Assembly: GCF_006376685.1 (NCBI RefSeq) | Contig: NZ_VEWL01000005.1 | Coordinates: forward strand, 186,001-250,000 | Reading direction: 5' to 3' | Length of the DNA stretch: 64,000 bases | From: Ochrobactrum teleogrylli | Lineage (GTDB): Bacteria; Pseudomonadota; Alphaproteobacteria; Rhizobiales; Rhizobiaceae | Shown here: piece by piece, positions 21,801 to 35,735 of the stretch | How the letters are laid out: every line of letters starts with the position of its first letter | Position numbering within the stretch: the first letter of the stretch is position 1 | Program-made: the position numbers and the translations under genes | The notes under the pieces: model-generated | Told to the model about the DNA's origin: nothing | What the model saw: the letters and a program-made list of their open reading frames with translations, nothing else | The model's database searches: none

Positions 21801-22657
21801 ACGCCGGGGCGGATATGGCAGAACCCTGCCCTGAGATCGTCGCCAAACCATGGCACCACAATCGCGACATGGCGGAGACCCGGACAAAGCGCCTGCAATT
21901 CATCCAGCGCGGCCGACCAGTCGCTACGGGCGCGGACCGCATTGCGGTTCAGCGACCGCGTGGTTCCCGGCACCGGCTCGTCGGTAACGGGATCGGGCAT
22001 CAGCCCGAATTCCGTCGAACCGGGAATAAGCGCCACGGCGCGCAGATCGCGCGCGACCTTGCCCACCGGCCGCACCACTTCGAACTCGAATTGCGGCAGC
22101 CGGTTGCCAAAACCGTCGAGCGGGATACGCTCGAAAACCACATAGGCTGTGCCGCGATAGGCGGGCGCGTTGCCGGTGCCCTGCTTGGCCTCGATCAGCG
22201 GATCGGGCTGCTGCGCGGCGTCACCGCGATAGACACGCATTTCAATGTCGGTGAGATCGAGTTCCTGCCCATCGGCCCAGACCCGACGAATGAACGCGAT
22301 CTCACCTTCGGCCACCGCATAAGCGGCATTGCCGAAATAGCTGTAACTCGTGACCTTCGGTCCGCCCTTGCCGCCCTGCCGTTCGGTGGTTGCGCTTTCC
22401 TCAAAACGGGTCGCCCAGATCAGCGTGCCGGAAACGCGGGCCGTACCGTAGATGAAAGGCAGGCTGGCACCTTCCTCTGCCGTGACAACGCGACCGCTGG
22501 AAAGCCTTGCGCCTTCGCTGTGGCGGGTGGAATTGATCAGCGCCGTGTCGATGCTATAGCCCGCCATGGCCCCAAGACCCGCGCCGATTGCAGCGCCAAC
22601 CGGACCGAATATGCCACCGATGGCAGCACCAGCGGCTTGCAGAACGATTGTCGCCAT
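18851..22657 (-). CDS. GTA host-specificity/tail-tip protein (RcGTA g15 type)
   Basis: 1268 residues. A Gly/Ala-rich hydrophobic start (AAGAAIGGIFGPVGAAIGAG) leads into the central TIM-barrel-like domain of the GTA megatron family (segments such as WFTELGCPAVDKGPN), then beta-rich tail domains shared with phage tail fibres (VEFYCSDPLRNFQVVG). In the Rhodobacter particle this protein forms the tail tip that contacts the recipient envelope. It follows g14 with three bases between. The frame is intact over 3.8 kb, which argues against decay of the cluster. Confidence 0.93.
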   Translation of the reverse strand: MATIVLQAAGAAIGGIFGPVGAAIGAGLGAMAGYSIDTALINSTRHSEGARLSSGRVVTAEEGASLPFIYGTARVSGTLIWATRFEESATTERQGGKGGPKVTSYSYFGNAAYAVAEGEIAFIRRVWADGQELDLTDIEMRVYRGDAAQQPDPLIEAKQGTGNAPAYRGTAYVVFERIPLDGFGNRLPQFEFEVVRPVGKVARDLRAVALIPGSTEFGLMPDPVTDEPVPGTTRSLNRNAVRARSDWSAALDELQALCPGLRHVAIVVPWFGDDLRAGFCHIRPGVTELSVRKPSHVWKVENVARSAAHLISMNGSGSAYGGTPSDESVIAAIRDAKARGLGVTLYPFIMMDIPAGNTLPSPYDGVGQPVYPWRGRITCHPAIGLLGTPDKTPAAAEQVTAFVEGEWGYRRFLRHCTDLAVQAGGVDAFLIGSELRGLTSIRDARDSFPFVTSLCSLAAEMRQRLGSACQITYGADWTEYFGYQAQDGTGDLFFNLDPLWSHPAINAIGIDNYMPLADWRDDDLDGGNPDGFDGPYDFAGLTSQIEAGEGYDWYYASDSNRGARQRTPITDGLAGKPWVYRYKDIRAWWSNPHFNRIDGTEATSPTGWVPQSKPIWFTELGCPAVDKGPNQPNVFPDPKSSENATPYFSNGARSDAAMERFLRAHYQHWPTANAVSPVYGGPMLDMDRIYLWAWDTRPFPEFPLSSSIWGDTANWRLGHWLNGRLSGVALDELIAAILADFGLPQAECSQADGYLAGFVIAEASTARGVLEPLLNVFGVHGFEQAGQFVFRSIARASSSVAISDMLVQPDDGNALTAELEDAGTLPATVEFYCSDPLRNFQVVGAAVRRDEGQGSESISLSGSMEQGQATALAESWMARRFAERRTASFSLPWSAAALHVGDRLRLDMLGGARDYVVTGLDDGSVRSVRTTALAPNIIFADRGETPQAVSGGPAIDMKPVFHLVDLPLWPGAEEPAGRFRIAAHAKPWRGVAVYASPTAEGFAERAKITERAVMGELVAPLAGGPSGRLQEGHSVEVTLYAGELQSRPLAQILNGANTALLQTLNGDWEIFQFLDADEIGANRWRLSRLLRGQLGTEAAALADKPVETPFILLDMAVSGVGLSASELGLELNWRVGTAGKTFSDAYFETVRQSGGLRGLTPLSPVHLKYDRAANGDLAFGWTRRGRIDADSWLGEDIPLGEDRELYAVEVWQNGAVVRREQVATASWTYAKAIRTADVGAGAFELRVAMVSTKIGAGDTAILNLAAGL

Positions 22658-22660
22658 GGG

Positions 22661-23095
22661 TCAGTCTGTCCTTTCGGGGAAAATGAAAATGCCGGCAATC
22701 CGCCTGCGCCATTGCGGCACCAGCGCCGAGGCCATAACGCCATGGCCCTCATAGGCATGGATAAACCGGTTCTCGCGGCCCATGATGCCAAGATGTTTCG
22801 CGGCCACATCGGCCCGCCAGCGAAAGACGATCAGATCGCCCGGCAGCGCCTCGCGGGTCTCGCGCCGCGCCATGTGCCGGGACGCGGCATCAAGCAGCCG
22901 GTCGCCCGCTGTCACCTCGCCCCAATCGGGCGCATAGGCACCGGCGTCTTCCGGCTCGCAGCCATAGAGCGCCCGCCAGATGCCGCGCACCAGACCGAGA
23001 CAGTCGCAGCTCACGCCAAGCGTCGAAGCGCCATGCCGATAGGGCGTGCTGAGCCACCGTTCGGCCTCGATCAGAACCCGTTCGGCAATCGTCAT
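22661..23095 (-). CDS. GTA tail NlpC/P60 peptidase (g14)
   Basis: 144 residues. The NlpC/P60 catalytic Cys is in SCDCLGLVRGIW, with candidate His residues in AAKHLGIM and FIHAYEG. In RcGTA this enzyme sits near the tail tip and cuts peptidoglycan cross-bridges of the recipient during DNA entry. It overlaps g13 by four bases (ATGA) and g15 follows immediately. Confidence 0.92.
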   Translation of the reverse strand: MTIAERVLIEAERWLSTPYRHGASTLGVSCDCLGLVRGIWRALYGCEPEDAGAYAPDWGEVTAGDRLLDAASRHMARRETREALPGDLIVFRWRADVAAKHLGIMGRENRFIHAYEGHGVMASALVPQWRRRIAGIFIFPERTD

Positions 23096-23967
23096 TGGAC
23101 CAACGCGCTCCCGTCATATTCCTGCTCGCCGCTGACATAGCTATAGGCGGCATCGTTGCCCGGCAGATGCGGGAAGCCACGAAAATTGACGCCATTGGAA
23201 AACTTGGCCTTGCAGGTGACAAAGCTCTTGTCGCAGCCAGCGACCACGCGGAAACTATCGCCTGCCGCAATCGGCAGAACCGGCGGCTCGCTGAGGCGCA
23301 AGGTGGTTCCGCTGTGATCCAGCACGCGTATTTTCGCGCCGACATTACTGCCGTTCATCCAGGTGAGATAGCCATTCGCGAACCAGCCCGTTGCGAAACC
23401 GGCAAGACCGGTCGCTGTCACTTCAGCACCATTGGCGGTCACCACCACGCCATCCGCAAAATAACGGGGGTCGCCGAGATTCACCCCGCAGCGCCCGTCA
23501 CCCAGACTGGCATCGCACAAGCGCATGATCCGCCTGCCGCGCACAGCGTCGAACAGGGCCGCAATGCCCTTCAGCTCCATGACGAAGCTTGCACCCGAAC
23601 GGCTGATTTTCGCCGCCGTCCAGCGGCGCAACAGCATGTGCTGGTCCGGGGCCGACCAGTTCACCAGATAGACTTCTATCGCCGCACCGTCATAGCGCCC
23701 GTTTTCGATATCCGTCTCACTAATCTTCGCGGACGACAGCGCGCCTTCAACCTCGCCACCCGCGATGGAAAGGCCAAGCGTGGTCGAGGCCTCGGAACTG
23801 CTCAGCCCGGTCTGCGGTTCGCAGGCGACGCCATTGACCGTGAGTGTCCGGTCGTGATCGGTGAAGCCCATAACCAAACCGTCCTGACGGCGGATAATCC
23901 ATGCGAAGCAATGGGTTGTCACCTCGCCTTGCAAATGTGATTCAAGCGCTGCCGGAACCGGGATCAT
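23092..23967 (-). CDS. GTA hub protein, DUF2163 family (g13)
   Basis: 291 residues. The N-terminal DUF2163 domain (FAWIIRRQDGLVMGFTDHDR) is followed by a beta domain with four cysteines arranged RLCDASLGDGRCGV and AGCDKSFVTCKAKF. The hub of the Rhodobacter GTA is reported to hold an iron-sulfur cluster, and these four cysteines are the natural ligand candidates. It overlaps g12 and g14 by four bases each. Confidence 0.92.
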   Translation of the reverse strand: MIPVPAALESHLQGEVTTHCFAWIIRRQDGLVMGFTDHDRTLTVNGVACEPQTGLSSSEASTTLGLSIAGGEVEGALSSAKISETDIENGRYDGAAIEVYLVNWSAPDQHMLLRRWTAAKISRSGASFVMELKGIAALFDAVRGRRIMRLCDASLGDGRCGVNLGDPRYFADGVVVTANGAEVTATGLAGFATGWFANGYLTWMNGSNVGAKIRVLDHSGTTLRLSEPPVLPIAAGDSFRVVAGCDKSFVTCKAKFSNGVNFRGFPHLPGNDAAYSYVSGEQEYDGSALVQ

Positions 23968-24596
23968 GACTTCACCTCAATGATCGGAATGGATGGAATT
24001 TCACCAGCGCGAAACGAGGCGATGCTGGCTGCCAGGCGATCCGTGTCGAAACGCACGACCACATCGAACAGGAACCCAGCCGTCACCACAGCGCCGACGC
24101 CCGGCACATAGCTTGGTGTGAACGTGATCTGCCCGGTCGCAAGATCGACCATGAACGCCTCGCCTTCATCCATGCGCGCGCCATTGACCCCGACCGTCAC
24201 CGATCCGGCGACCGGACGCGTCACCGGGCGGTCGTAGCTCTCATAGCTCTTGATGAGCTGGAAGTGCGGTGTCGCGCCATCTCCGCTGCCCAGTTTCTGA
24301 TCGAGATAGGTCGGCGGAATATTGCCCGGCGCGGATGAATAATCGAAAGGATCGCGAAACCGGAACGCATAAAGCGACCCGCGCCGCGCCTCGAAAAAAC
24401 CCAGCACAGTTTTGAGATCATCAAGCGAACGCAGACCCGTGCCGACATCGAAATGACGGCGGGAATGCGCCCAGCGCGCATTGCGCTTTTCCAGCCCCGA
24501 GGTGAGCGTGACAATCTCGTTGCGCCATTCCGGCCCGCCGGTTGCCCCGAAGGAAACGCCGAGCGGAAAGCGCACATCATGAAAGGCGTTCGTCAT
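23964..24596 (-). CDS. GTA distal tail protein, DUF2460 family (g12)
   Basis: 210 residues. Its start MTNAFHDVRFPLGVSFGATG and the block HSRRHFDVGTGLRSLDDLKT followed by GSLYAFRFRDPFDYSS are typical of DUF2460 (TIGR02217) proteins. It forms the distal tail ring under the hub. The ATG at 24596 was preferred to a GTG at 24602, because AAGGAG lies nine bases before the ATG and only three before the GTG. Confidence 0.92.
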   Translation of the reverse strand: MTNAFHDVRFPLGVSFGATGGPEWRNEIVTLTSGLEKRNARWAHSRRHFDVGTGLRSLDDLKTVLGFFEARRGSLYAFRFRDPFDYSSAPGNIPPTYLDQKLGSGDGATPHFQLIKSYESYDRPVTRPVAGSVTVGVNGARMDEGEAFMVDLATGQITFTPSYVPGVGAVVTAGFLFDVVVRFDTDRLAASIASFRAGEIPSIPIIEVKS

Positions 24597-24598
24597 GT

Positions 24599-25144
24599 TC
24601 ACAATCTCCTTGCGCCGCGGCGCACCGCACCCGCCAGCATGGTCGAAAGCTGTGCCTCGGATTTTCTGAACGACGATGCATCGGGCGATGTCATATTGAA
24701 CACGACCTGCACCGGGCTGCCGCCGCCGCCCGTCGCAACGCCAAGACGGCCATCCGCCCCACGCGCCAGCGGGAGGATCGCTTCCGCACCTGCCTCACCA
24801 GTGAGGCCGAGCGAACCGGACCCCATGCCGAAATAGGTCGGGCTGGACACGACCCCACCCTTGGCGAAAGGCATGATCGAACTGATGCCGCTCGTCAGCC
24901 CGCCAATCGCCGAGGAAGCAAGACCTTGCAGCGGCTGCAAGCCTGCCGATAGGGCCGAACCGGCCAGACTGGTCGCGAGGCTGCGCAACACATCCTCCAA
25001 CCCCTGACCGGAGGTGATCGCGCCTTTCAACGCCGAAGTCAGGCTTCGACCGAAACTCGACGAGCGCTTTTCGAGATCGGTCAAGGCGCGGTCGAACGCG
25101 CTTGTATCCGCATCGACGGATACGGTTACGGTTTCGTCTGTCAA
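24599..25144 (-). CDS. GTA tape measure protein (g11)
   Basis: 181 residues. It is a short tape measure, consistent with the short GTA tail: an N-terminal helical region (SVDADTSAFDRALTDLEKRS), a Gly/Ser/Ala-rich hydrophobic middle (LQPLQGLASSAIGGLTSGI), then FAKGGVV and GLTGEAGAEAILPL, which recur at the ends of many tape measure proteins. It sets tail length and may help DNA cross the inner membrane. It lies five bases after the tail-assembly gene. Confidence 0.9.
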   Translation of the reverse strand: MTDETVTVSVDADTSAFDRALTDLEKRSSSFGRSLTSALKGAITSGQGLEDVLRSLATSLAGSALSAGLQPLQGLASSAIGGLTSGISSIMPFAKGGVVSSPTYFGMGSGSLGLTGEAGAEAILPLARGADGRLGVATGGGGSPVQVVFNMTSPDASSFRKSEAQLSTMLAGAVRRGARRL

Positions 25145-25149
25145 TTAAA

Positions 25150-25365
25150 TCACCTGTCGGGAAAAGCGCGCATCAGCGCATCGAGCGCATGGCGCGTGGG
25201 CGCGTCGCGCTGCGGCGTAAGCGGTCCGAGTGCCGCCGAAAGTTCACGCGGGGTCATGGACCAGAAAGCCTGTGAGGAAAGCCGCAGCAAACCGAAACCC
25301 GCCCGCATCACCTCATCCCACGGGAAAGGCTTCGGCGAAGATTCCGATTCAACTGCGGCTCTCAA
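25150..25365 (-). CDS. GTA tail assembly chaperone, rcc01693/TIGR02216 family
   Basis: 71 residues. The segment PFPWDEVMRAGFGLLRLSSQ followed by FWSMTPREL is characteristic of the small rcc01693-type proteins encoded just before the tape measure gene. The start codon is TTG overlapping the preceding TGA (TTGA); the first internal ATG would lose 19 residues including the conserved PFPW. Translation is probably coupled to the upstream gene. Confidence 0.85.
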   Translation of the reverse strand: MRAAVESESSPKPFPWDEVMRAGFGLLRLSSQAFWSMTPRELSAALGPLTPQRDAPTRHALDALMRAFPDR

Positions 25366-25709
25366 GGGTTTGGCGGAGAATCGCTTTCCGGCTTTGCAGA
25401 TGTGCCGAATGTGGCGGTCAGGAGTGCGGCGACCACGCTCGCGAAACCGGCGGCACCGCCTTCGGCCCGCATATCGGCGACATCTTCTTCGCTGACGGCA
25501 TGACCGCCGCCGCGCAGGCCCGCACAGAGAATACGCAACATATCGCGGGCCGACAGCCGCCCTGTCGAAAACCGCGCAATCAGTTCCGAAAGATTATCCG
25601 CTTCGAAAGCTGTTTCCAGCTCGGCAAGCGCGCCCAAAGTGAGACAGAGAATCCAGTCGCGACCATCGAGCTTTGCGGCAACCTCGCCGCGATGGCGGTT
25701 GGCCATCAT
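25362..25709 (-). CDS. GTA tail chaperone (g10)
   Basis: 115 residues (MMANRHRGEVAAKLDGRDWI onward). The sequence has the gene transfer agent family pattern of a short beta domain with a helix (LTLGALAELETAFEADNL) followed by LIARFSTGRLSARDMLRILC. Chaperones of this type coat the tape measure during tail assembly. The ATG overlaps the g9 stop, and the gene overlaps the next gene by four bases. Confidence 0.88.
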   Translation of the reverse strand: MMANRHRGEVAAKLDGRDWILCLTLGALAELETAFEADNLSELIARFSTGRLSARDMLRILCAGLRGGGHAVSEEDVADMRAEGGAAGFASVVAALLTATFGTSAKPESDSPPNP

Positions 25710-26119
25710 AGGACGGCACCGAAGGTCATATAGCCCGCTGATTCCAGCGCAATCTCGAAGGTCATTTCGGCGTCGTGATCGCCGCCATATTCCAGTGCCG
25801 TAATCTGAAACGGCCCGGTGACGGTGCCAAAATCCGGCAGTACGATCTGCCAGTCAACTATTTCACCGTCAAAAAACAGATCGCGCACCAGAGCGTCCGA
25901 TCCGGCATCCTTGAAAATACCCGACCCGCTGACCGAAACGCGCTGCACACCACTGCCCGCCAGAAGCTGACGCCAGCGTCCGGCAGAATCCGCGTCGGTT
26001 ACATCGACGGTTTCCGCATTGAAGGCAATGCGCTTGGTGCGCAGACCCGCGCATGTCTCAAAGCTGCCATCACCGCGCGCCGTCTTGAGCAAGATATCCT
26101 TGCCTCTTTGAGCCGCCAT
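25706..26119 (-). CDS. GTA major tail protein (g9)
   Basis: 137 residues, TP901-1-like major tail protein: MAAQRGKDILLK near the start, VDVTDADSAGRWRQLLAGSG in the middle, and a beta-rich C-terminal half ending FEIALESAGYMTF. It polymerises into the tail tube. It lies 98 bases after g8, a gap filled by a palindromic repeat, and starts its own tightly packed run of tail genes. Confidence 0.93.
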   Translation of the reverse strand: MAAQRGKDILLKTARGDGSFETCAGLRTKRIAFNAETVDVTDADSAGRWRQLLAGSGVQRVSVSGSGIFKDAGSDALVRDLFFDGEIVDWQIVLPDFGTVTGPFQITALEYGGDHDAEMTFEIALESAGYMTFGAVL

Positions 26120-26138
26120 TCATTTCTCCTGGATGAGA

Positions 26139-26235
26139 GCACATCCCGAAAAGTGTGAAACGGTTTTCGGACAAGATGTGCGTAAAAACAGATGGTTAGA
26201 GCGCCGATCTGATAAAATCAGATCGAAACGCGCTC
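26139..26235. repeat. Interspersed palindromic repeat, family 1, copy B, inside the GTA operon
   Basis: It matches copy A at 9242-9340 along its length: GCACATCCCGAAAAGTGT at one end and the GATCTGAT...ATCAGATC stem-loop with GAGCGC/GCGCTC arms at the other. It fills the g8-g9 gap, and its end overlaps the last codons and stop of g8 (26218-26235). Confidence 0.8.
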
Positions 26236-26649
26236 GATAATCAAAGGCTCGGTCACCGCGCGATAGCGCATGGTGCCGAGATAGCTGCCGAGACCGTCCG
26301 TGTTGCGGGCGATCACTTCGGTCAGCATGAGATTGACGAGATGATGCCCATCCACCGTAACCGGCGGCCCCTCATCAAGGCGGCTCGCAATCTTCGCGGC
26401 GATGTCCAGCACGCGCTTGCGCCCGCTTTCCTTCGCCCAAATCTGTATGTTGACGAAATGCTCGTCGCCCTTTTCGCTGGCCGTGCTCCAGTCGCGGCTG
26501 GATGTCTCGCCAAGCGTCACATAGGGGAATGGTGTTTTCGGCGGCACATGGTCGTAAATCCGTTCGCCGCCGAGTGTTTCTTTCAGTCCGTCGTCGTCTT
26601 TCAGGGCGTCAAAGAGCGCCCTCTGTAATGCTGCCGCTCCAAGTTCCAT
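26218..26649 (-). CDS. GTA tail terminator, DUF3168 family (g8)
   Basis: 143 residues. MELGAAALQRALFDALKDDD and PKTPFPYVTLGETSSRDWST are typical of DUF3168 head-tail joining proteins, which cap the tail tube. The last six codons (IERVSI and stop) are read from the end of the palindromic repeat copy B, so the original C-terminus may have been altered. The ATG is preceded by GGGGA. It overlaps a small upstream ORF by 41 bases. Confidence 0.9.
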   Translation of the reverse strand: MELGAAALQRALFDALKDDDGLKETLGGERIYDHVPPKTPFPYVTLGETSSRDWSTASEKGDEHFVNIQIWAKESGRKRVLDIAAKIASRLDEGPPVTVDGHHLVNLMLTEVIARNTDGLGSYLGTMRYRAVTEPLIIERVSI

Positions 26650-26797
26650 CCGGGTCCCCGCTGGAAGTTACCATTTTAGCGCCAGCACTCTGCGCAAGCG
26701 CCTGTCTGTCGAAAATCAGATCGTCGCTGACGGCCAAAGCCTTCCAGCGCAGCGCCCGCACCAGCCCCTCCGCCGTCAGCTTCATCGCAATGTTCAT
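26609..26797 (-). CDS. Extra small ORF between GTA g7 and g8, unknown function
   Basis: 62 residues: MNIAMKLTAEGLVRALRWKA onward, ending SGSITEGAL. Its ATG overlaps the g7 stop (ATGA) and has an excellent ribosome binding site (GAGGAGGGACG before the ATG). It overlaps g8 by 41 bases in another frame. Without it there would be a 144-base gap in an otherwise tightly packed operon. I recall no counterpart in the Rhodobacter cluster. The start is amphipathic helical (LTAEGLVRALRWKALAV), and nothing suggests a membrane protein. It could be an assembly factor or a remnant. Confidence 0.55.
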   Translation of the reverse strand: MNIAMKLTAEGLVRALRWKALAVSDDLIFDRQALAQSAGAKMVTSSGDPDGTWSGSITEGAL

Positions 26798-27132
26798 CGT
26801 CCCTCCTCGACCGCCAGGCAGACGAGGTAACGCCCGGTCTCGTCCGGGTCATGCACCGCGCTGAGCCGGAACAGACGTGCGCCCTTGCGCAGCCGCATGG
26901 CGGTTGAAATATCGTCGCGAAACCGCAGCAGGATGCGGTGCGTTACCTGTGGCTGCGGTCGTGTGCCGAAATCGCGCTGCCCGACCGAAACGGGTTCGAT
27001 GCGTCCCCAGACCGTCGCGATTTCCACCCATGCTTCAGCATAACCGCCCATACCGTCGGCCACCGGCTGCAACATTTCCAGAGCCAGCTCCGCAGTGAGC
27101 TGGCCCGGATCGATGAAGAGCACATTGTTCAT
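26794..27132 (-). CDS. GTA head closure/stopper protein (g7)
   Basis: 112 residues. The pattern EIATVWGRIEPVS followed by THRILLRFRDDI and MRLRKGARLFRL is that of SPP1 gp16/HK97 gp10-like head closure proteins. It seals the head-tail interface. It overlaps g6 by four bases and the small following ORF by four bases. Confidence 0.88.
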   Translation of the reverse strand: MNNVLFIDPGQLTAELALEMLQPVADGMGGYAEAWVEIATVWGRIEPVSVGQRDFGTRPQPQVTHRILLRFRDDISTAMRLRKGARLFRLSAVHDPDETGRYLVCLAVEEGR

Positions 27133-27695
27133 AGAGAAATCCGTCGCCAGCCATCGACCATCTGGTTGACCATCGGTGGAAAGGACACCGCCGCGGAACC
27201 AGCATCGACGCCTGCGCGCGATTCATAAAGATGGGCGACGAGGCTCAGGATCGCCTGTTTCAAAACCTCCGGCACCGTATCGGCAGTGGTGCCGAAGCCC
27301 GCCACGAAGTCCACCTCGATGCCGCAGAAGGTCGGGGCGTCGGGATAAGGCGCCATATAGAGACGTTGCGGACGACGGCCAAGCTGCAGCTCGAACTCCT
27401 CCGGCGCGAAGCTGATTGCCGTGCCGTCTGCGCGGTAGGCGACCACTTCGGTCACGGCTGAAACCGGATATTTGAACAGCGCCAGACGGCCCGAACGCGG
27501 CCAGCGATCCACGCGCAGCCGCCAGGTCTGGTCGATCAGCGCGAGGCCGGTTTCGGCTTCCACCAGTTCCCGCGCCGTCTTGATCAGGCGCTCCAGAATG
27601 GTGTCTTCGCTTTGTGTCGAGATACGCAAAAATGTGCGTGCGTCTTCGATCGTCACCGGCTCGACTGCCGGCGGCGTGACAAGAAACATTGTCAT
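27129..27695 (-). CDS. GTA head-tail connector (g6)
   Basis: 188 residues. The N-terminal half, VTIEDARTFLRISTQSEDTI followed by RLIKTARELVEAETGLALI, is the gp6-like adaptor fold, and a C-terminal extension (LKQAILSLVAHLYESRAG) is common in the GTA family. It docks on the portal. A 147-base gap separates it from the capsid gene upstream. Confidence 0.9.
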   Translation of the reverse strand: MTMFLVTPPAVEPVTIEDARTFLRISTQSEDTILERLIKTARELVEAETGLALIDQTWRLRVDRWPRSGRLALFKYPVSAVTEVVAYRADGTAISFAPEEFELQLGRRPQRLYMAPYPDAPTFCGIEVDFVAGFGTTADTVPEVLKQAILSLVAHLYESRAGVDAGSAAVSFPPMVNQMVDGWRRISL

Positions 27696-27782
27696 GGAAT
27701 TTCCCCTAAACGATAACTTTCAAATCAGTCAGTTACACTCAACGCCCTCTACAAGTTTCACCTCTCGCGAGCGCAAAACCAC

Positions 27783-27840
27783 CTGCCAAAACCGGCAGTG
27801 GGGCTTCAAAAGACCTGAGAAAAATACCAGTCGGTCTTAT
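27783..27840 (-). other. Short hairpin in the gap between capsid and connector genes
   Basis: CTGCC (27783-27787) pairs with GGCAG (27794-27798) around a 6-base loop and is followed on the minus strand by GTGGTTTTGC. It is the only notable element in the 147-base g5-g6 gap. A weak partial terminator here would favour capsid expression over tail genes, but the stem is short. Confidence 0.3.
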
Positions 27841-27842
27841 GC

Positions 27843-29111
27843 CTAAGCTGCGAAGGTCAGCAGCTTGATCGCGTCGAAATCCTGTACGCCACCACCGACT
27901 CGCTTGGTGGTGTAGAACAGCACATAGGGTTTTGCGGAATATGGATCGCGCAGCACGCGCACACCGATTCGGTCGACAACCAGATAGCCGCGTCCAAAAT
28001 CACCAAAGGCAATCGCCGGAACATCGGCTGCAATGTCGGGCATGTGCTCGGCCTCGACCAGACCGAAGCCCATCAGCGACGCCTTGTCGCCAATGGCGGA
28101 TGGCGGCTGCCAGAGATAATTGCCGTCCTTGTCCTTCAGCTTGCGCAACACGCTCTGCGTCTTGCGGTTCATGACGAAATTGGCGTTCTGGCGATAACCG
28201 GCTTTCAGCGCATAGATAAGCTCGATCAGCTTGTCGGACGGGTCAGTCGCAGGCAGCGCACCGTCGACGCCGGTGGCGATATGGCCAAGCTTGCCCCATT
28301 CCCAGGCGCTTTCAGCGACACTGTCATAATTCAGGAAACCCCGCGGCTTGTTGACACCATCGCCATTGACGAAGGCAGCGCCTTCCTGCTCGGCGAAGGC
28401 GGTTTCCACCTCCTCGGCAATCCACTGTTCGACATTGACCGCCGCGTCGTCGAGAAGCGCTGCGGTCGCCGCTGGCATGGCGTAGATTTCCATGGTCGGG
28501 AACTGCAATTCGGCAAGCTTCGCCGATGCCGTCTGCGGACGGGCATCTGTTTCGCCGACCCAGCCCGTTGCCGGACCGGTGATGGAGAACGGCTTTTTCA
28601 GAACCGCACCTGATACCTGACGCACGCCGGAAATGCCGCGGATCGGTGACAGCACGGCCAGCCTGCGTCCGATTTCGGTTTCAAGCTCGGCAGGCACCAG
28701 ATAGCCGCCATCCGGACCTGAAGCATAGGAATGCGCCTTCTGCTCGATGCCGCGCAGCGTCTGCTCGTCACCGCGACGCACATAGCCATCAAAGGCCTGC
28801 TTGTGTTCGACATTGCCAATAACCGAAGCGCCGCCAAGCTGCGGACGCGACTGTTTCGACACGTAACTATCGAGCGCATGCTTCTGCTCATCCAGTGCGC
28901 GATTGATGCGCTCGACCTTTTCGGTCAGAAGCACGTCCACGCCCGCATGTTTTTCAACCTTCTTCAGCCGTTCGTCATTGGCATCGCGGAAGGCCGAAAA
29001 CGCGGTCATGAATTCCTCGAAAGCCTCGCCGACATCGCCATTCTGATGCGAGACAAGCGACTTCGTTTCCACGCTTTTGGTTTCAAGCGGGATGGCATGA
29101 ATTTTTTCCAT
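27843..29111 (-). CDS. GTA major capsid protein, HK97 fold (g5)
   Basis: 422 residues. About 110 N-terminal residues are coiled-coil rich (FEEFMTAFSAFRDANDERLK and VERINRALDEQKHAL) and form the scaffold-like delta domain normally removed by the g4 protease. The HK97 capsid domain follows, with YLVPAELETEIGRRLAVLSP, the E-loop region, and FVNGDGVNKPRGFL. It builds the small GTA head. Full length and intact. Confidence 0.95.
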   Translation of the reverse strand: MEKIHAIPLETKSVETKSLVSHQNGDVGEAFEEFMTAFSAFRDANDERLKKVEKHAGVDVLLTEKVERINRALDEQKHALDSYVSKQSRPQLGGASVIGNVEHKQAFDGYVRRGDEQTLRGIEQKAHSYASGPDGGYLVPAELETEIGRRLAVLSPIRGISGVRQVSGAVLKKPFSITGPATGWVGETDARPQTASAKLAELQFPTMEIYAMPAATAALLDDAAVNVEQWIAEEVETAFAEQEGAAFVNGDGVNKPRGFLNYDSVAESAWEWGKLGHIATGVDGALPATDPSDKLIELIYALKAGYRQNANFVMNRKTQSVLRKLKDKDGNYLWQPPSAIGDKASLMGFGLVEAEHMPDIAADVPAIAFGDFGRGYLVVDRIGVRVLRDPYSAKPYVLFYTTKRVGGGVQDFDAIKLLTFAA

Positions 29112-29122
29112 GGAGTTCCTGT

Positions 29123-29794
29123 TTAATTGGAGATTGTTTTCGCGGCATCGCGCATACGCTGCGCAAGACCGGCTTCCTCATGCCGGATGGCGTCCCGCGC
29201 TATCCGGTTTTCGCCGAGCGCCGCATAGCCCTTGGCTATGACCGTTCGTGCGCTCGCACGGCTCAGCCCCGCATCCCGCGTGAGCCAGCGTTCGAATTCC
29301 CTGATGGTCGGTAAATCCGATTTGACCTGACCGATGCGCGCCTGCGGCAGCATCGGAAAGGTCACCACCGAGATTTCCCAGAGATCGGCTTCCAGAATAT
29401 GGCGCAGACCGGTGCGCGCATCTTTCCGCGCCTTCACCGTGCGAAAGCCGATGGACAGCCCGTCAATGCCGCCCGAGCGCAAGAGATCCAGCGCCTCGCG
29501 GGCCCGCGCCACGCCCTTGGCAAGCCTGCCTTCGACGTAGAGCCCGCGCGCATCCTCCCTGATCTGCGTCCAGACGCCGATCGGCTCCGCCGCATCATGC
29601 TGCCACAACATGCGGATGCCCGAAGTGCCGCGTTCTCGTAGTGCACGGCTGAAAGCGCCGCGCTCGATCACATCGGCGCCGAGATCCGGCAGACCGAAAA
29701 TGCTGGCATAGCCGGAAAAGCTGCCGTCGATCTCGACATCTTCAAGCGCCAGCGAAGCGCGTTTGGTTTCGAGCTTCAGATCAGGCTTCGCCAT
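29123..29794 (-). CDS. GTA prohead protease, HK97 family (g4)
   Basis: 223 residues. The U35-type domain has GYASIFGLPDLGADVIERGAF near the start, WQHDAAEPIGVW with the likely catalytic His, and GGIDGLSIGFRTV with the likely Ser. It processes the capsid delta domain. The ATG at 29794 was chosen over the longer open frame because AAAGGAG lies six bases upstream; it overlaps the end of the preceding gene by 14 bases. Confidence 0.92.
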   Translation of the reverse strand: MAKPDLKLETKRASLALEDVEIDGSFSGYASIFGLPDLGADVIERGAFSRALRERGTSGIRMLWQHDAAEPIGVWTQIREDARGLYVEGRLAKGVARAREALDLLRSGGIDGLSIGFRTVKARKDARTGLRHILEADLWEISVVTFPMLPQARIGQVKSDLPTIREFERWLTRDAGLSRASARTVIAKGYAALGENRIARDAIRHEEAGLAQRMRDAAKTISN

Positions 29795-30158
29795 CGGTGC
29801 TCCTTTCGGCGGGGAGAATGCCCGGCAGGGCTGCATGTTTAAGCCGTTCGCTGAAACGCTTGAAAACGCCCAGCGCCGACCAGGCGGCGAGGCTGGCGGA
29901 TGCCGATCCCATCAGCATCAGTTCCGCCCGACCGAGCGCGGCATCAAGCGCCAGCGCTTCGGCGATTTTCACACCCGCCGCGCCACCGAAAACCATGCCG
30001 CAGATAATGCCGACGGCGAAGCGGATCGCCGCTTCGCGCCTGCCATGCGGCAGCATATAGGCGAGCGATACCGCCGAGCCCGCAACCGCACCCGCCACCT
30101 TGGCGAACCAAAGCCATGCGGCATCAGATGCAAAAACCGTGTCGTTCAGATTGCTCAT
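29781..30158 (-). CDS. GTA-associated membrane protein, DUF6107 type (g3.5 position)
   Basis: 125 residues with three likely membrane segments (about 18-34, 46-65 and 82-98: AVAGSAVSLAYML, FAVGIICGMVFGGAAG, LMGSASASLAAWSALGVF). It lies between portal and protease genes, the g3.5 position of RcGTA, and overlaps both neighbours. The role is not established; a membrane protein in the head operon might anchor assembly or serve as a second holin. Confidence 0.8.
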   Translation of the reverse strand: MSNLNDTVFASDAAWLWFAKVAGAVAGSAVSLAYMLPHGRREAAIRFAVGIICGMVFGGAAGVKIAEALALDAALGRAELMLMGSASASLAAWSALGVFKRFSERLKHAALPGILPAERSTDGEA

Positions 30159-31363
30159 GACGACCTCCTGCTTTTTGTGTGAGGCTGATAGCCAACCGCT
30201 TCGCGCTTTTCGTCATCAGTGAGGAAAGGCGCATCGGACACGCGCCGCCACAACGCTTCGCGTTCAGACGAAAGCCCCTCAATGCGGTCGGCATCGTAGT
30301 CGAGGCGCAAATTCTCGCCGAAAAGCGGCCCCAGCCAATGGCTGAACGCCTTGGTCATGCGTCCCATCAAGGGCAGCACGGTGAGGCGATAGAAAGCGCG
30401 GTTGGCCTCGGCGTAATTGGCATAGGTATTGTCGCCGGGAATGCCGAGCAGCATCGGCGGCACGCCGAAAGCCAGCGCAATGTCGCGTGCCGCGCCATTC
30501 TTGGCTTCGATGAAATCCATATCCTGCGGGCTATAACCCATCGCCTTCCAGTCGAGCCCGCCTTCCAGAAGCAGCGGTCGCCCGGCACCGGACGCGCCGG
30601 TATAGCCCTCTTCCAGTTCGGCCTTCAGCCGTTCGAACTGTTCCTCGGTCAGATTGCCGCCATCTTTCGGCGCATAGACCAACGCTCCCGATGGACGCGC
30701 CGAATTATCCAGCAACGCCTTGTTCCACGCGCCCGCAGCATTATGCGTATCAAGCGCCATCAGGGCGGCTTCGAGCGGTGCGAAACCATAGATGTCATCG
30801 AGCGGATGAAACAGTTTGAGGTGCAGACCCGCAGCCGTCTCCGTTCCAAGCGCAATACGCCGCACCGTCGAGCCGGAACGGTAGACCAGCGCTTGCGGCC
30901 AGCCATTGGCATCCGTTTCGACGCTGACACGTTCCGGCTTCAGCAGATGCAATTCAATCCGCCCGCTTGGCAGATCGACCCGCTCCACATAGGCATTGCC
31001 GGAAATCAGTAAATGGCCGTAGAGCCTTTCCAGAAAGCTCGCGCCATCCATGCCCGATTGCGGCGATGCGATCAGGTCGAGAAGCGGATGCGTGTCATGC
31101 TCCATCACGCCTTCATAGAGCAGCCATGGCACGCTACTGGCCGCATCGGCAATCAGGCGCACACAGCGATGCGCGACCGGATTGCGCATAAACCCTTCGC
31201 GAGCAAGCGTCGTATAATCCCGCGCAATCCACGACGCATTGCGTTCGACATGCAGCGCCACGAAACCGTTTGCCATTTTCAGCTCACGCCCCGCATTCAC
31301 GGTTGCAGGCAGACGCGACGCAGTTTCGCGCCCCGGCCTTTTCCAAGCCCAGTTCCAAGCCAT
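30155..31363 (-). CDS. GTA portal protein (g3)
   Basis: 402 residues. HK97-type portal: NPVAHRCVRLIADAASSVPW, FLERLYGHLLISGNAYVERV, and LALAFGVPPMLLGIPGDNTY are family hallmarks. It forms the dodecameric ring through which DNA is packed. ATG at 31361-31363 with GGAGAGG seven bases upstream. It overlaps g3.5 by four bases and lies 28 bases after the terminase gene. Confidence 0.94.
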   Translation of the reverse strand: MAWNWAWKRPGRETASRLPATVNAGRELKMANGFVALHVERNASWIARDYTTLAREGFMRNPVAHRCVRLIADAASSVPWLLYEGVMEHDTHPLLDLIASPQSGMDGASFLERLYGHLLISGNAYVERVDLPSGRIELHLLKPERVSVETDANGWPQALVYRSGSTVRRIALGTETAAGLHLKLFHPLDDIYGFAPLEAALMALDTHNAAGAWNKALLDNSARPSGALVYAPKDGGNLTEEQFERLKAELEEGYTGASGAGRPLLLEGGLDWKAMGYSPQDMDFIEAKNGAARDIALAFGVPPMLLGIPGDNTYANYAEANRAFYRLTVLPLMGRMTKAFSHWLGPLFGENLRLDYDADRIEGLSSEREALWRRVSDAPFLTDDEKREAVGYQPHTKSRRSS

Positions 31364-31391
31364 AAAGTGGCCTCTCCAGTTTTTCTAAAAT

Positions 31392-32636
31392 TTAGCCGAA
31401 GCGCCGGATGCGGGGCTTCATATCCGTACCCAGCATCAGCTCGCCCAACGCCCAAACCATCGCGTCAAGACGATCCGGCGAGCGACCGCTGGAAAGCCCT
31501 TCCGGCGCGAAATCGCACATCTCGTCTTCCAGAGCGGAAAACCGACCCGCATGGCGCACCCGCCCCTGCTCGTACAAGGCCGCGACGGGTTCCGCCCGCA
31601 GCCACTTGCCCCGTGTCGCATGGCGTTTCAGCACCGGCACCGAAGGGTCTTCCGCCGCCAGCACCGCAGCCACCATCTCGCCGCCCTGATTGACCTCGGC
31701 GACAATCGTGTCGGCCTCCAGACGGTGATAAAGCGCGATAGCCTTGCGCGCCCATTGATGCGGCTTGGCCATCGACATGCTGTCATCGACCAGCACATGC
31801 CCTATCCCCTCCGCATCGATACCCGCCGCGACAATGCCGCAGGCATCCGATGCCTTGCCCGACGAGGCCGGTGGGTCAACGGCGACAACAATACGAACCA
31901 AGGGTGGTGCGCTTTCCTCGAAACCGCGCTCGATCAGATCGCGCGACCACAGCGCACCCGGACGCTCCTCGATCAGTTCGCCGTCGAGTTCCTGTCGCCC
32001 AAGGCGCGTGCCCGCATAACGCCGGTTGATGGTGGCGATGAAACCATCAGCCAGATTGGCGGCGTTTTCATCGGTGCGCATATGCGTCATCGAAACACCG
32101 TCATCCGCCATCAATGTTTTCAGCAACGACACCGCGCGCGGTGTGGTCGTGACGACCTGTCGTGGTGACGTTCCCAACCGCAGACCGAATTGCAGCATGT
32201 CCCAGGTTTCCTGCGGATGCTTCCATTTCGCCAGCTCGTCACACCAGGCGGCGGCAAATTGCGGCCCGCGCAAGCTGTCCGGGTCTTCCGACGAAAACAA
32301 CGTCGCCGTCGCACCATTGTCCCAGATCAGACGGCGGCGCGTTGCCTCATAGCGAGGGCGGCAGAGCCGCGACACCGACAAAATCCCCGATGGCCCATCG
32401 ACCATCACCTCCCGCGCATCATTGAAAGTTTCACCGACCAGCGCGATATGCCCGCTTGGCTTTTGCGTGAAAGGCGGCAGACCCAGCGCCATGCCGGAAA
32501 CCCATTCCGCGCCCGCCCGCGTCTTGCCGGAACCGCGTCCGCCAAGAATGAGCCAGACGCGCCAGTCTCCGGCGGGCGGCAATTGCGCGTCACGCGCCCG
32601 GAGAAACCACTCCTCCCCCGCCGCCATCACCTGCAT
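31392..32636 (-). CDS. GTA large terminase (g2)
   Basis: 414 residues from ATG 32636; other possible starts are ATG 32627 and a TTG at 32693 with AGGAGA close by. The ATPase domain has Walker A LILGGRGSGKTRAG and a Walker B-like FAAAWCDELAKW. The C-terminal nuclease domain shows Asp-rich VVAVDPPASSG and the later segment PDRLDAMVWALGEL. The protein packs random chromosomal DNA into GTA heads. The 5' end overlaps g1 by 47 bases or more. Confidence 0.93.
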   Translation of the reverse strand: MQVMAAGEEWFLRARDAQLPPAGDWRVWLILGGRGSGKTRAGAEWVSGMALGLPPFTQKPSGHIALVGETFNDAREVMVDGPSGILSVSRLCRPRYEATRRRLIWDNGATATLFSSEDPDSLRGPQFAAAWCDELAKWKHPQETWDMLQFGLRLGTSPRQVVTTTPRAVSLLKTLMADDGVSMTHMRTDENAANLADGFIATINRRYAGTRLGRQELDGELIEERPGALWSRDLIERGFEESAPPLVRIVVAVDPPASSGKASDACGIVAAGIDAEGIGHVLVDDSMSMAKPHQWARKAIALYHRLEADTIVAEVNQGGEMVAAVLAAEDPSVPVLKRHATRGKWLRAEPVAALYEQGRVRHAGRFSALEDEMCDFAPEGLSSGRSPDRLDAMVWALGELMLGTDMKPRIRRFG

Positions 32637-33117
32637 TCGCGTCAAGCCCGCGCTCCAGGATTTCCCTTGCGCGCCTTTTTGCAAGTTCCTCAATTCTCCT
32701 GTCTATGCGGATCAGAGCCTGTCGCGCCTCGTTGACGCTGACCGTGGAATTTTCTTCCGAGCGCGCCGGGGTGGCCGCTTCGGCAGAAAGTTCGCTCACC
32801 GTCTTCACAGCCCTTGCCAGCGCCATCAAGGCTTCCGCCTTCCCCTTGTCCGGCAACTCTTCCGCTTCGAGCAGCCGTTTCAATTCGGTCTGCAACCGCT
32901 CCAATGCCGGATCGGCTTTTACCTGCGGTTTCAGCGCCGCACCGGATGGTCCGACCAGCTGCAACCGGCGCAACCGCATCAGATAATTATCCAGCGAATA
33001 ACCCAGCACCTCCGCCATTTCGGCACTGTCGATGCCGTGAGCCATCTGCAATGCATAGGCATGCCGGATACGCTTCTCGCTCCGCGCTTGTCTTGTTGTG
33101 ATGTCCAACTGCGGCAC
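32590..33117 (-). CDS. GTA small terminase (g1)
   Basis: 175 residues from GTG 33117; TTG 33108 (172 residues) has AGGTG eight bases upstream and is the better-spaced alternative. The N-terminal half carries a helix-turn-helix-like segment (MAHGIDSAEMAEVLGYSLDN), the middle is acidic and helical (ERLQTELKRLLEAEELPDKG), and the C-terminus is coiled coil (IRIDRRIEELAKRRAREILE) with a Gly-rich tail. Size and position match the small terminase described for RcGTA. It is the first gene of the cluster, and an intrinsic terminator lies 11 bases upstream of the GTG. Confidence 0.8.
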   Translation of the reverse strand: MPQLDITTRQARSEKRIRHAYALQMAHGIDSAEMAEVLGYSLDNYLMRLRRLQLVGPSGAALKPQVKADPALERLQTELKRLLEAEELPDKGKAEALMALARAVKTVSELSAEAATPARSEENSTVSVNEARQALIRIDRRIEELAKRRAREILERGLDANAGDGGGGGVVSPGA

Positions 33118-33120
33118 CTG

Positions 33121-33229
33121 TGCTTATAAAAAAACCCCGGAAGCGCGGGCGCCTTCGGGGTTACGAACATGTTTGGTTCGACAGGTTATTCCCGCAATCA
33201 GCGACTGCGGTTACACTTCTTCGACCGTA
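33121..33229 (-). ncRNA. Candidate small RNA or GTA operon leader ending in an intrinsic terminator
   Basis: On the minus strand three hairpins follow in order: CCGCA/TGCGG (33210-33192), CGAAC/GTTCG (33180-33164) and a GC-rich hairpin (33160-33135) followed by seven T. A promoter-like CTTGAC at 33264-33259 places the start near 33229, giving an RNA of about 109 bases. It ends immediately before GTA g1, so it is either a free small RNA or an attenuating leader of the operon. I do not recognise its family. Confidence 0.5.
33128..33160 (-). terminator. Intrinsic terminator directly upstream of GTA g1
   Basis: The 26-base segment 33135-33160 folds into a GC-rich hairpin (four C-G pairs at the base, one A-C mismatch, tight loop) and is followed on the minus strand by seven T (33134-33128). 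The U-run ends 11 bases before the g1 GTG, leaving no room for another promoter in between. Confidence 0.75.
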
Positions 33230-33235
33230 CCGAAT

Positions 33236-33264
33236 GACTACCAAAGCACCGTTACGCAGTCAAG
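33236..33264 (-). promoter_or_regulatory. Possible promoter for the RNA upstream of GTA g1
   Basis: CTTGAC (33264-33259) matches the alphaproteobacterial -35 consensus; 17 bases downstream lies GTAGTC, a weak -10. There are no other good candidates nearby on the minus strand. Confidence 0.4.
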
Positions 33265-33578
33265 GACTTTTTTCCTATTTAACGAATATTTTCCTGTTTT
33301 ATGATATGGGCTGCAGATTCCATATTTAAGCATATACTTAAAAATAACATCTACCCGGAACATCCGCTTCACCCCCAGCTCAAAGCGCAGAATTATAAAA
33401 TATCGGGCAACATTATGTTTCTACTGGTTTTTCACGATTGCCATTAAAAATTTGCACGTCCAACCTTTGGCAACCAATCGTCAACTTCCACCCACTAGGC
33501 TCCTGGCCTATTAGTTTGCTATAATAAAAGAGCAAGTTCAGTGCGTTTCCCAATTCTCTAGTGCCGAAGTCAGAGTTT
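33265..33578. promoter_or_regulatory. AT-rich divergent promoter region between the GTA cluster and the penicillin-binding protein
   Basis: The region is markedly richer in A+T than its surroundings. It contains a perfect inverted repeat TTTAAG-N6-CTTAAA at 33325-33342 and a TATAAT-like sequence near 33521 with the right orientation for the penicillin-binding protein gene, although without a good -35. No ORF of note. Confidence 0.5.
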
Positions 33579-35735
33579 ATGCGTCATACGGCAGACAAAG
33601 ATTCCGGAAAAAAGCAGCGGAAACCCTTCCGGGTTTCGCGCCTGATTGGACTCGACGCCTGGATTGATTCAGGCCTGTACAATCTGCATTTCCGTCTCGG
33701 CGAATGGTGGGAAAACATCACCATCTTTTCGCGCCGCTTTCGCGTGCGCGGCTTCCGGCGCTTTGTCGTCGAGGTTTTGGACGAGGGTTTTACGCTCGGC
33801 GTCGCGGGTTCTGTCGTGCTTTTGATGCTGGCGCTGCCCGCTTTTGAGGAAACCAAGAAAGACTGGCGCGCGCAGGACGATTATGCCGTCACTTTCCTTG
33901 ATCGTTACGGCAATGAAATCGGCCAGCGCGGCATTCTGCACCGTCAGGCCGTGCCCATCGACGAATTGCCGGATCATGTCATCAAGGCGGTGCTGGGCAC
34001 CGAAGACCGACGCTTCTTCGACCATTATGGCATCGATTTCTGGGGCCTCAGCCGTGCGCTCAGCCAGAATATGCGCGCTAATGGCGTCGTGCAGGGCGGT
34101 TCGACTATTACCCAGCAGCTTGCCAAGAACCTGTTTCTCTCCAACGAACGAACGCTGGAACGCAAGATCAAGGAAGCCTTTCTGGCGCTCTGGCTGGAAA
34201 GCAATCTGAGCAAGAAGGAAATCCTTCAGCTCTATCTTGACCGCGCCTATATGGGCGGCGGCACATTCGGTATTGCAGCCGCGTCCGAATTCTATTTCGG
34301 CAAGAACATCAAGGATGTCTCGCTCGCGGAAGCCGCCATGCTGGCGGGTCTGTTCAAGGCACCGGCCAAATTCGCGCCGCATGTCAATCTGCCTGCCGCG
34401 CGTGCACGCGCCAATGTCGTCTTATCCAATATGGTGGAAAGCGGTTTCCTGAGCGAAGGTCAGGTCGCCGTCGCCCGCCGTCATCCGGCAAGCGTCATCG
34501 ACCGCGCCAAGAACGAAAGCCCGGACTATTTCCTCGACTGGGCCTTCGATGAGGTCAAGCGCGTGGCAGGCCAGATGCCGCAGCACACGCTGATCGTACG
34601 CACCACGCTGGACAGCAATATCCAGCGGGCAGCGGAGGAATCGCTCGAATATCACCTGCGCCAATATGGCAAGGACTATAATGTTGCGGAAGCCGCAACC
34701 GTCGTTCTCGCCAATGACGGCTCGGTGCGGGCGCTTGTCGGCGGGCGCGACTATGGCGAAAGCCAGTTCAACCGCGCGACCAGGGCGCTGCGTCAGGCGG
34801 GCTCGTCCTTCAAGCCTTATGTCTATGCGGCAGCGATGGAAAAGGGCCTGACGCCCAAAACCATCGTCTCCGATGCGCCCGTCAGCTGGGGCAACTGGTC
34901 GCCGCGCAATTATGGCCGCAGCTTCGCGGGTCGGGTCGACCTGACGACGGCACTCGTGCGCTCGCTGAACAGCGTGCCGGTGCGCCTCGCGAAGGATTAC
35001 CTGACCACGGCACCGATTGTCGCCTTGACCAAGGCAATGGGGGTGGAATCGCCGATCTCCTCGCACAAGACGATGGTGCTTGGCACATCCGAAATGACGG
35101 TGATGGATCAGGCCACCGGCTTCAATGTGTTTCCGAATGGCGGCATGGCGGGCAATCGTCACGCCTTCACGCAGATCGTTTCTTCGGACGGTCGTGTATT
35201 GTGGGATTTCACCCGCGATGCGCCAAAGCCGCACCGCGCTCTGTCTGAAAAGGCCGCTTTCGAGATGAACTCGATGCTGGTTCAGGTGCCCGAGCGCGGG
35301 ACGGGCCGTCGCGCCGCACTGCCCATGACCCGCGTGGGCGGCAAGACCGGCACGACGCAGAACTATCGCGATGCCTGGTTTGTCGGCTTCACCGGCAATT
35401 TCACGGCGGCGGTCTGGTTCGGCAATGACAATTTCACGCCGATGAAGGATTTGACCGGCGGCATTCTGCCTGCCATGGCATGGCAGCGCATGATGTCCTA
35501 TGCGCATCTAAACGTCGAACTGAAGCCGATACCCGGCGTCACGCCGCCTTTCCCCGCCCCGCCTAAAAACCCTGCGCCGCAGGTGGCCAACGCCAAGCCG
35601 GAAGAAACCATGGCAGCGCCGCCACGGGTGCTTTCTCCGATGGCAACCAAGGTTCTCAAGGAGTTGCACGACCGTTTCATGGCCGCACCGCCTCTGCCGA
35701 AAATTGCCGAGCGGACCAAGATTTCGGTGCTTTGA
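33579..35735 (+). CDS. Class A penicillin-binding protein 1A (transglycosylase/transpeptidase)
   Basis: 718 residues from ATG 33579; a GTG at 33561 would add six. A basic cytoplasmic N-terminus of about 70 residues precedes one membrane helix (about 72-88). The GT51 domain shows TEDRRFFDHYGID and GGSTITQQLAKN. The transpeptidase domain has the active-site serine in AGSSFKPY (SxxK), then SLN and KTGTT. It ends with a Pro-rich tail. It polymerises and cross-links peptidoglycan at the outer face of the inner membrane. The DUF1214 gene follows after six bases, so they are co-transcribed. Confidence 0.93.
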   Translation: MRHTADKDSGKKQRKPFRVSRLIGLDAWIDSGLYNLHFRLGEWWENITIFSRRFRVRGFRRFVVEVLDEGFTLGVAGSVVLLMLALPAFEETKKDWRAQDDYAVTFLDRYGNEIGQRGILHRQAVPIDELPDHVIKAVLGTEDRRFFDHYGIDFWGLSRALSQNMRANGVVQGGSTITQQLAKNLFLSNERTLERKIKEAFLALWLESNLSKKEILQLYLDRAYMGGGTFGIAAASEFYFGKNIKDVSLAEAAMLAGLFKAPAKFAPHVNLPAARARANVVLSNMVESGFLSEGQVAVARRHPASVIDRAKNESPDYFLDWAFDEVKRVAGQMPQHTLIVRTTLDSNIQRAAEESLEYHLRQYGKDYNVAEAATVVLANDGSVRALVGGRDYGESQFNRATRALRQAGSSFKPYVYAAAMEKGLTPKTIVSDAPVSWGNWSPRNYGRSFAGRVDLTTALVRSLNSVPVRLAKDYLTTAPIVALTKAMGVESPISSHKTMVLGTSEMTVMDQATGFNVFPNGGMAGNRHAFTQIVSSDGRVLWDFTRDAPKPHRALSEKAAFEMNSMLVQVPERGTGRRAALPMTRVGGKTGTTQNYRDAWFVGFTGNFTAAVWFGNDNFTPMKDLTGGILPAMAWQRMMSYAHLNVELKPIPGVTPPFPAPPKNPAPQVANAKPEETMAAPPRVLSPMATKVLKELHDRFMAAPPLPKIAERTKISVL

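Follow-up and report, generated by a model that had tools for sequence, protein, structure and literature searches.

A terminated leader ahead of the gene transfer agent operon of Ochrobactrum teleogrylli as a probable site of GafZ-dependent anti-termination

Production of a gene transfer agent (GTA) kills the cell that makes it, and how the agent is held off is therefore a central question for a locus that encodes one. We analysed a 64,000-nucleotide stretch of the O. teleogrylli genome (contig NZ_VEWL01000005.1; the whole stretch is called the window below), in which a conserved minus-strand promoter directs transcription at an intrinsic terminator located just ahead of g1, the first gene of the GTA operon. 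Why should a promoter face a terminator at this place? As judged by the sequence and by analogy with known systems, the region probably works as a control region of the late-promoter type, in which GafZ, encoded in the same window, would carry RNA polymerase through the leader terminator into the operon.

Promoter, leader and terminator ahead of g1

Positions are window coordinates, and bases within the promoter module are numbered from the first T of the −35 element (33263). The module was compared among 60 relatives, of which 35 belong to Brucella, including those of the former Ochrobactrum type ('the genus' below). For base-by-base comparison we used 62 leaders, designated the 'others' set, all from outside the genus except L040 (from genus genome G027); L026 in this set is from the same family, and L055 was excluded for its one-base offset. 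The coordinates of all features are given in Table 1.

The bases TTGA, C13, A25, A36, T40 and C41 were invariant in all 62 'others' leaders, and T24 varied once. A36, T40 and C41 were also common to all 35 genus genomes. A36 to C41 fall on the predicted start or downstream of it, and their invariance is therefore not accounted for by ordinary contacts at the promoter. A −10-like sequence is present in the initial transcribed region, as delimited by the predicted start. Near +14 to +17, a TGYG motif is presumably similar to the consensus pause sequence and to the pause known from lambda at +16/+17; the window itself has TGTA at that position.

The candidate GafZ-binding element is a palindrome in the promoter spacer. 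In the 'others' set, 4.45 of its 6 pairs were formed, compared with a shuffled mean of 4.18 and a highest value of 4.42 among 2000 shuffles. When centres from 7 to 34.5 were tried, its axis was the sole symmetry axis with more than 3 of 6 pairs in this set. The clearest palindromes read CAGCGTGACGCTG or CACCGTGACGGTG, and the two halves co-vary in the 'others' set. Upstream of the −35 element, the box repeat was seen by eye in many genus leaders. Perfect matches to TAGGAAWWWWDTCC occurred just twice in the 4.76-Mb genome, at 33264–33277 and 48932–48945; with one mismatch allowed, 24 genome sites were found versus 17 for the backward control.

The leader hairpin next to g1 is an intrinsic terminator by its sequence, with a stable GC-rich stem followed by a U-tract. 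A scan of the minus strand between 33400 and 18500 gave fifteen compact hairpins of −12 kcal/mol or lower followed by at least four T, and the leader terminator was the sole one of these with more than four T. The fold of 33232–33126 had a z score of −2.41 against dinucleotide shuffles, 5 of 200 being equally good. A generic promoter/terminator scan of the window detected neither the leader promoter nor the terminator, because the stem is bulged and the −10 element (TAGTCA) is unusual. The upstream neighbour is a divergent penicillin-binding-protein gene on the plus strand (33561–35735); thus, the leader terminator closes no upstream minus-strand gene.

A preliminary description of the locus, made from the sequence alone, had reported a CTTGAC box followed by three hairpins, the last of them a terminator with seven T. 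The promoter and the terminator were confirmed. The set of three hairpins did not hold, as hairpin 1 and the middle hairpin overlap and cannot both form fully. The gap between the U-run and the GTG of g1, given there as 11 bases, is 10 bases, and the conclusion drawn from it was correct: between the terminator (33128) and the GTG (33117) there is no room for a g1 promoter.

Table 1. Features of the GTA control region and associated genes, in window coordinates.
Feature	Position	Strand	Remarks
Second, weaker box copy, CAGGAAAATATTCG	33296–33283	−	three mismatches to the wider pattern
Upstream box, TAGGAAAAAAGTCC (GGA-N6-TCC)	33277–33264	−	candidate activator site; abuts −35; conserved in relatives
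−35 element, TTGACT	33263–33258	−	within CTTGAC; TTGA in 62/62 'others' leaders
Spacer palindrome, CTGCGTAACGGTG	33259–33247	−	imperfect; candidate GafZ-binding element between −35 and −10
−10 element, TAGTCA (order-wide TAGGNT)	33240–33235	−	T24 in 61/62, A25 in 62/62 'others' leaders
−10-like element, TACGGT (YAnnnT)	33229–33224	−	over predicted start; candidate sigma-dependent pause signal
Predicted terminated leader RNA	33228–33128	−	101 nt; start A (33228) inferred from −10 spacing
Hairpin 1	33227–33208	−	6 pairs; 94.4% of cells paired, 2 double-change pairs (30 genus leaders)
Middle hairpin	33210–33192	−	in minimum-energy fold; absent from genus consensus fold
Intrinsic terminator	stem 33162–33133; T-run 33134–33128	−	seven T; −17.7 kcal/mol
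g1, putative small terminase	32590–33117	−	first GTA operon gene; adjoins TerL; GTG at 33117
Remaining GTA structural cluster	18851–32693	−	TerL, portal, protease, capsid ... GTA_TIM tail protein
gafZ, DUF6456	47408–48214	−	candidate anti-terminator; Pfam E 1.7e-46
gafY, DnaA domain IV-like (Bac_DnaA_C)	48211–48663	−	Pfam E 1.2e-13
Second perfect box copy	48932–48945	+	beside gafYZ, upstream of divergent gene ~49000–49389 (+)

Conservation of the module and its terminator

Of 80 loci, mostly from Hyphomicrobiales, that had been fetched by TerL alone, a position matrix located the module ahead of the terminase gene in 74. The scores ranged from 32.6 to 93.1; when these 80 sequences were reversed, the highest score was −30.2. 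In total the matrix accepted 104 of 110 loci; the 30 fetched by the leader itself were left uncounted. The six TerL-fetched loci that scored below 18 were L071, which has just ~400 bases upstream of TerL, L072, L074 (12.8), L076, L084 and L105. Because the matrix was trained on the counted loci, together with the 30 leader-fetched ones, a profile run on whole genomes is the fairer test. Such a profile (R1), built from 58 of 93 leaders, matched 51 of the 60 relative genomes and 17 of 26 genera, and every one of the 35 genus genomes had a single copy. BLASTN with the leader missed five of these 35, and R1 found the module in all five. TerL matches, fragments included, were present in 52 of the 60 relatives, and GafZ matches in 56.

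In G050, a relative from the same order, the GTA cluster is split by other DNA (L184, G050:C13:346800-362600), and module copies at ~692, 7971 and 14297 stand before the TerL, portal and capsid pieces. At the capsid copy, a hairpin with a U-tract was seen by eye between the promoter and capsid.

To describe the terminator in the genus we used an alignment (A1) of 30 of the 35 genus genomes. In the helices of hairpin 1 and the terminator, 92.5% of cells were paired versus 86.5% in shuffles, and 33 cells carried double changes versus 12.0; none of 500 shuffles reached the observed pairing or double-change count, with the consensus structure derived from this same alignment, which favours the structure. 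Eight of the 12 pairs of the terminator stem had double changes. Hence, of the hairpins first described, hairpin 1 and the terminator are backed by covariation in the genus, and the middle one is not in the consensus. Among the 26 genus genomes in which TerL had a long match, 24 contained a strong hairpin, with no T-run required (G028 of the 26 has one internal stop and G023 lacks the end; TerL was counted as broken in G006, G012, G017 and G030). The preliminary description had named loss of the hairpins from close relatives that keep the GTA cluster as a refutation; it was seen in just two of these 26 genomes.

Terminators were then counted in the first ~185 nt of 94 leaders, 63 from outside the genus and 31 from it (L040 included; L074 kept). 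With at least five T and a folding energy of −12 kcal/mol or lower, 8 of 31 genus leaders (28/1240 shuffles, 2.3%) and 24 of 63 others (137/2520, 5.4%) had a terminator; with at least four T and −14 kcal/mol or lower, the counts were 24 of 31 (32/1240, 2.6%) and 27 of 63 (234/2520, 9.3%); some of these matches could fall inside g1. These rules replaced a looser one that had given 25/30 in the genus and 30/64 outside. Terminator stems of unlike sequence are present in Nitratireductor, Methylocystis, Cohaesibacter and Hoeflea.

Some loci depart from the common arrangement. Four genomes (G009, G024, G018 and G010; leaders L133, L134, L136 and L178) had no TerL match, yet kept the leader promoter and the gafZ gene. 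G054 contains three extra module copies (L181, L182 and L183), and tblastn found no GTA structural gene in the fetched stretches; these copies are possibly other targets of the GafZ type. Tandem module copies upstream of TerL were found in L110 (2938 and 3223) and L069 (1538 and 2414). Locus L047, labelled Bacillus subtilis, contained an alphaproteobacterial GTA TerL (66% identical) and the module; it is probably a mislabelled or contaminated assembly.

Probable read-through by GafZ and the alternatives

The proteins that could act on this leader are encoded in the same window. gafY directly precedes gafZ, and the two genes overlap by 4 bp at the end of gafY. gafZ is the sole DUF6456 match of the genome, and the Caulobacter control genome also matches. 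By sequence, the pair corresponds to GafY and GafZ of Caulobacter. GafY is a homologue of DnaA domain IV (PMC9632790), and gafA is split into two genes in Hyphomicrobiales, Brucella included (PMC9638019).

GafZ of Caulobacter is a GTA anti-terminator whose binding depends on an element between −35 and −10; it appears to move along with the polymerase and Nus factors, an association reported for Caulobacter alone, and in its presence a part of the polymerase gets past the terminator after gtaT, as well as E. coli rrnB T1 (PMC11150451). The window shares with that system the division into GafY (DnaA domain IV-like) and GafZ (DUF6456) (PMC11150451; PMC9632790) and, as an imperfect candidate here, a palindrome between −35 and −10, where the GafZ element of Caulobacter is located (PMC11150451). 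It also resembles it in having a terminator in the transcribed region, which is passed with GafZ in Caulobacter (PMC11150451) and presumably here. Caulobacter has a degenerate −35 element (AATCAT) and a distant upstream GafY site, whereas the −35 element of the window is near consensus and its box abuts it.

The lambdoid PR'-Q-tR' switch offers a second comparison. Q requires a binding element between −35 and −10 and, in the initial transcribed region, a −10-like sequence that makes the polymerase pause in a sigma-dependent way (PMC6606751). The window has the same kinds of parts, with a −10-like initial element, an element in the promoter spacer and a terminator before the late genes (PMC6606751), and it appears to carry both elements that a Q-type anti-terminator needs, namely the spacer palindrome and the −10-like element at the start. 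Lambda Q and GafZ, however, have no sequence or structural similarity (PMC11150451), and the operon here is that of a domesticated GTA. Among the papers found, the AlpA-controlled alpB leader of Pseudomonas is the nearest published architecture: it too has a binding element in the −35/−10 spacer, and its leader contains an intrinsic terminator that begins 54 nt after the start, before the first gene, compared with ~67 nt here (PMC7969949). AlpA controls lysis genes and not a GTA (PMC7969949), and GafZ is reported to show no similarity to the known anti-terminators (PMC11150451). In Rhodobacter capsulatus, the C-terminal part of GafA similarly binds the −35/−10/start region, but GafA is one protein that activates via RpoZ, unlike the split gafA of Hyphomicrobiales (PMC6363796; PMC9638019). 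Anti-termination is not mentioned for R. capsulatus GafA in the available text, and 'terminat' has 0 occurrences in that of PMC9638019.

On these likenesses, the locus would work as follows. Polymerase would start at about 33228 and halt by default at the leader terminator, giving an RNA of ~100 nt and leaving the structural genes silent. Once GafY and GafZ are made, GafY would help to recruit polymerase, and GafZ would bind the element between −35 and −10 and load where the −10-like pause signal, just past the start, detains the polymerase. The polymerase so modified would pass the terminator and go on to transcribe g1 and the ~14-kb cluster. The sequence itself shows the promoter module, the pause-like element, the terminator and gafYZ, with their conservation and linkage; the action of GafZ at this site, the pause and efficient termination we infer from homology and from the anatomy of the region. 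If the same GafZ passes the leader terminator, the short RNA would be the default product; it is most likely mainly a by-product, like lambda 6S RNA, the short default terminated RNA of the lambdoid late promoter. The earlier suggestion of a terminator that switches particle production on and off is supported, by the nearby gafYZ and by the Q-type loading features; for the other suggestion, a co-encoded small regulator, no positive evidence was obtained here.

Several observations weigh against such a switch. In Brucella, the spacer palindrome is imperfect and without covariation in the genus (4.00 vs 4.00 pairs). The GafY site of Caulobacter (ACTATG, −123 to −113), considered as a counterpart of the upstream box, is unlike the window's box. 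The terminator reported for Caulobacter follows the first gene, gtaT, and consists of three 150-bp repeats, whereas the one here is compact, has a U-tract and precedes g1. The module was rare in the class sample, R1 matching 10 of 385 genomes under strict filters, so that in this form it is uncommon beyond the order; TerL follows the module in eight of the ten loci, one of them the window's own, and four of these eight are outside the order. Of the 26 genus members in which TerL had a long match, two, G014 and G025, had no comparable hairpin near the start; that of G014 is located further down, without a T-run. Intact TerL was absent from nine genus genomes, and the hairpin persists in seven of them (in G030 as judged by the looser rule), G009 and G010 having lost it. 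With at least five T and −12 kcal/mol or lower, 39 of 63 non-genus leaders had no terminator; just 8 of 31 genus leaders had five or more T, and many genus members beyond the window's own group have only about four. Applied to TerL-coding sequence as a control, the looser rule matched 9 of 11 genus sequences, which are related, and 10 of 63 outside. All shuffles and counts treat related sequences as separate rows.

Some of these observations would suit a simple insulator or passive terminator, with g1 to g15 transcribed from an internal promoter or by leakage and without GafZ control. The short U-tracts of many genus members and the 39 leaders without a terminator at the stricter setting are consistent with it, but there is no minus-strand gene upstream from which to insulate, the conserved promoter aims straight at the terminator, and GafZ is matched in 56 of 60 genomes. 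We consider this explanation unlikely. The leader RNA could also be an independent trans-acting small RNA, the GTA operon being read from elsewhere or by leakage, as might be expected from its discrete promoter and terminator, from the persistence of the hairpin in the seven genomes without intact TerL, and from a CCCCC stretch common to 17 of 31 genus leaders. Nevertheless, conservation is highest in the promoter and over the first ~17 nt, the middle part of the RNA being divergent and, in the window, without the CCCCC stretch. Rfam and tRNA searches of the window gave no match, no room is left for a promoter between the leader RNA and g1, and in G050 the module copies precede pieces of the GTA cluster. 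A small RNA acting in trans is thus distinctly improbable. Among open-licence PMC papers, no published small RNA for this locus was found; PMC5381064, in its available portion, merely tabulates a 'gene transfer agent' gene.

Alternatively, read-through might be decided by the RNA alone, through a riboswitch, a leader peptide or an antiterminator stem. The leader is structured and ends in a terminator, and in the window its hairpin 1 shares bases with the middle hairpin. However, when the terminator stem was forbidden, its arms found no alternative pairing and ~18 kcal/mol was lost (−20.6 vs −38.8 kcal/mol); the sole ATG in the leader, at 33170, opens a frame that is still open past the g1 start, and the middle region is not conserved. 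The absence of a replacement structure and the open ATG frame make an RNA switch less likely, and we regard it as very improbable. The attenuator first proposed is accordingly disfavoured in its RNA-only form, and its terminator stands.

Read-through of the leader terminator with the help of GafZ is our preferred explanation. The principle of anti-termination by GafZ is already known from Caulobacter (PMC11150451). The present analysis points to one switch common to many Hyphomicrobiales, to GafZ as the likely factor, and to exact positions for the start A, the −10-like element and the terminator. It also predicts a pause-dependent loading of GafZ, and the available text on Caulobacter GafYZ mentions neither such a step nor a pause element (PMC11150451). 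Chances appear about even for a wider proposal, that Hyphomicrobiales GTAs share one module in which GafZ is loaded at a promoter-proximal sigma-dependent pause, a Q-type mechanism carried out by an unrelated protein, and in which the terminator is movable, being placed ahead of g1 in the window, downstream of g1 in Caulobacter and in front of the capsid piece where the cluster is split. Among open-licence PMC papers, none was found that describes, for the GTAs of Hyphomicrobiales, a terminator in the leader or a pause element, so that the novelty claimed for such a leader in rhizobial GTAs was fair within that scope.

The GTA cluster, the gafYZ region and minor observations

The genes downstream of the leader form an RcGTA-type cluster, with TerL, portal, protease, capsid and GTA_TIM tail genes in order. 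Five genes of the cluster beyond g1 had Pfam matches, and the translated frames have no internal stop. g1 matched no Pfam family at E ≤ 0.001; its GTG and the next residues are kept in the sister species. The relatives of TerL place the host in Brucella, among those formerly assigned to Ochrobactrum; the closest named relative of TerL was that of B. haematophila (97% identical). A plasmid search of the region gave no match.

The CCCCC stretch is located in the middle of the leader in the genus members that have it (L007, L016 and others). In L040 it falls in a hairpin loop.

The second perfect copy of the box is adjacent to gafYZ. Of 56 genomes with a GafZ match, 30 gafYZ loci were fetched, all from the genus; 25 contained the exact box, three more had it with one mismatch and two lacked it. 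Autoregulation of gafYZ through this copy was considered and dropped: the distance from the box to gafZ varies from 550 to 728, and by eye the spacing to the divergent plus-strand gene is steady. This gene (~49000–49389) had no Pfam or PHROG match and may be a co-regulated GTA accessory gene. The second box copy contains TTATCCACA, which we take to be a DnaA box, GafY being DnaA-like. PHROG 31864 (316 positions) matched GafY near its start (E 1.1e-7) and, weakly, the end of GafZ (E 0.0036); perhaps it represents a phage protein in which the GafY and GafZ parts are fused, as in GafA.
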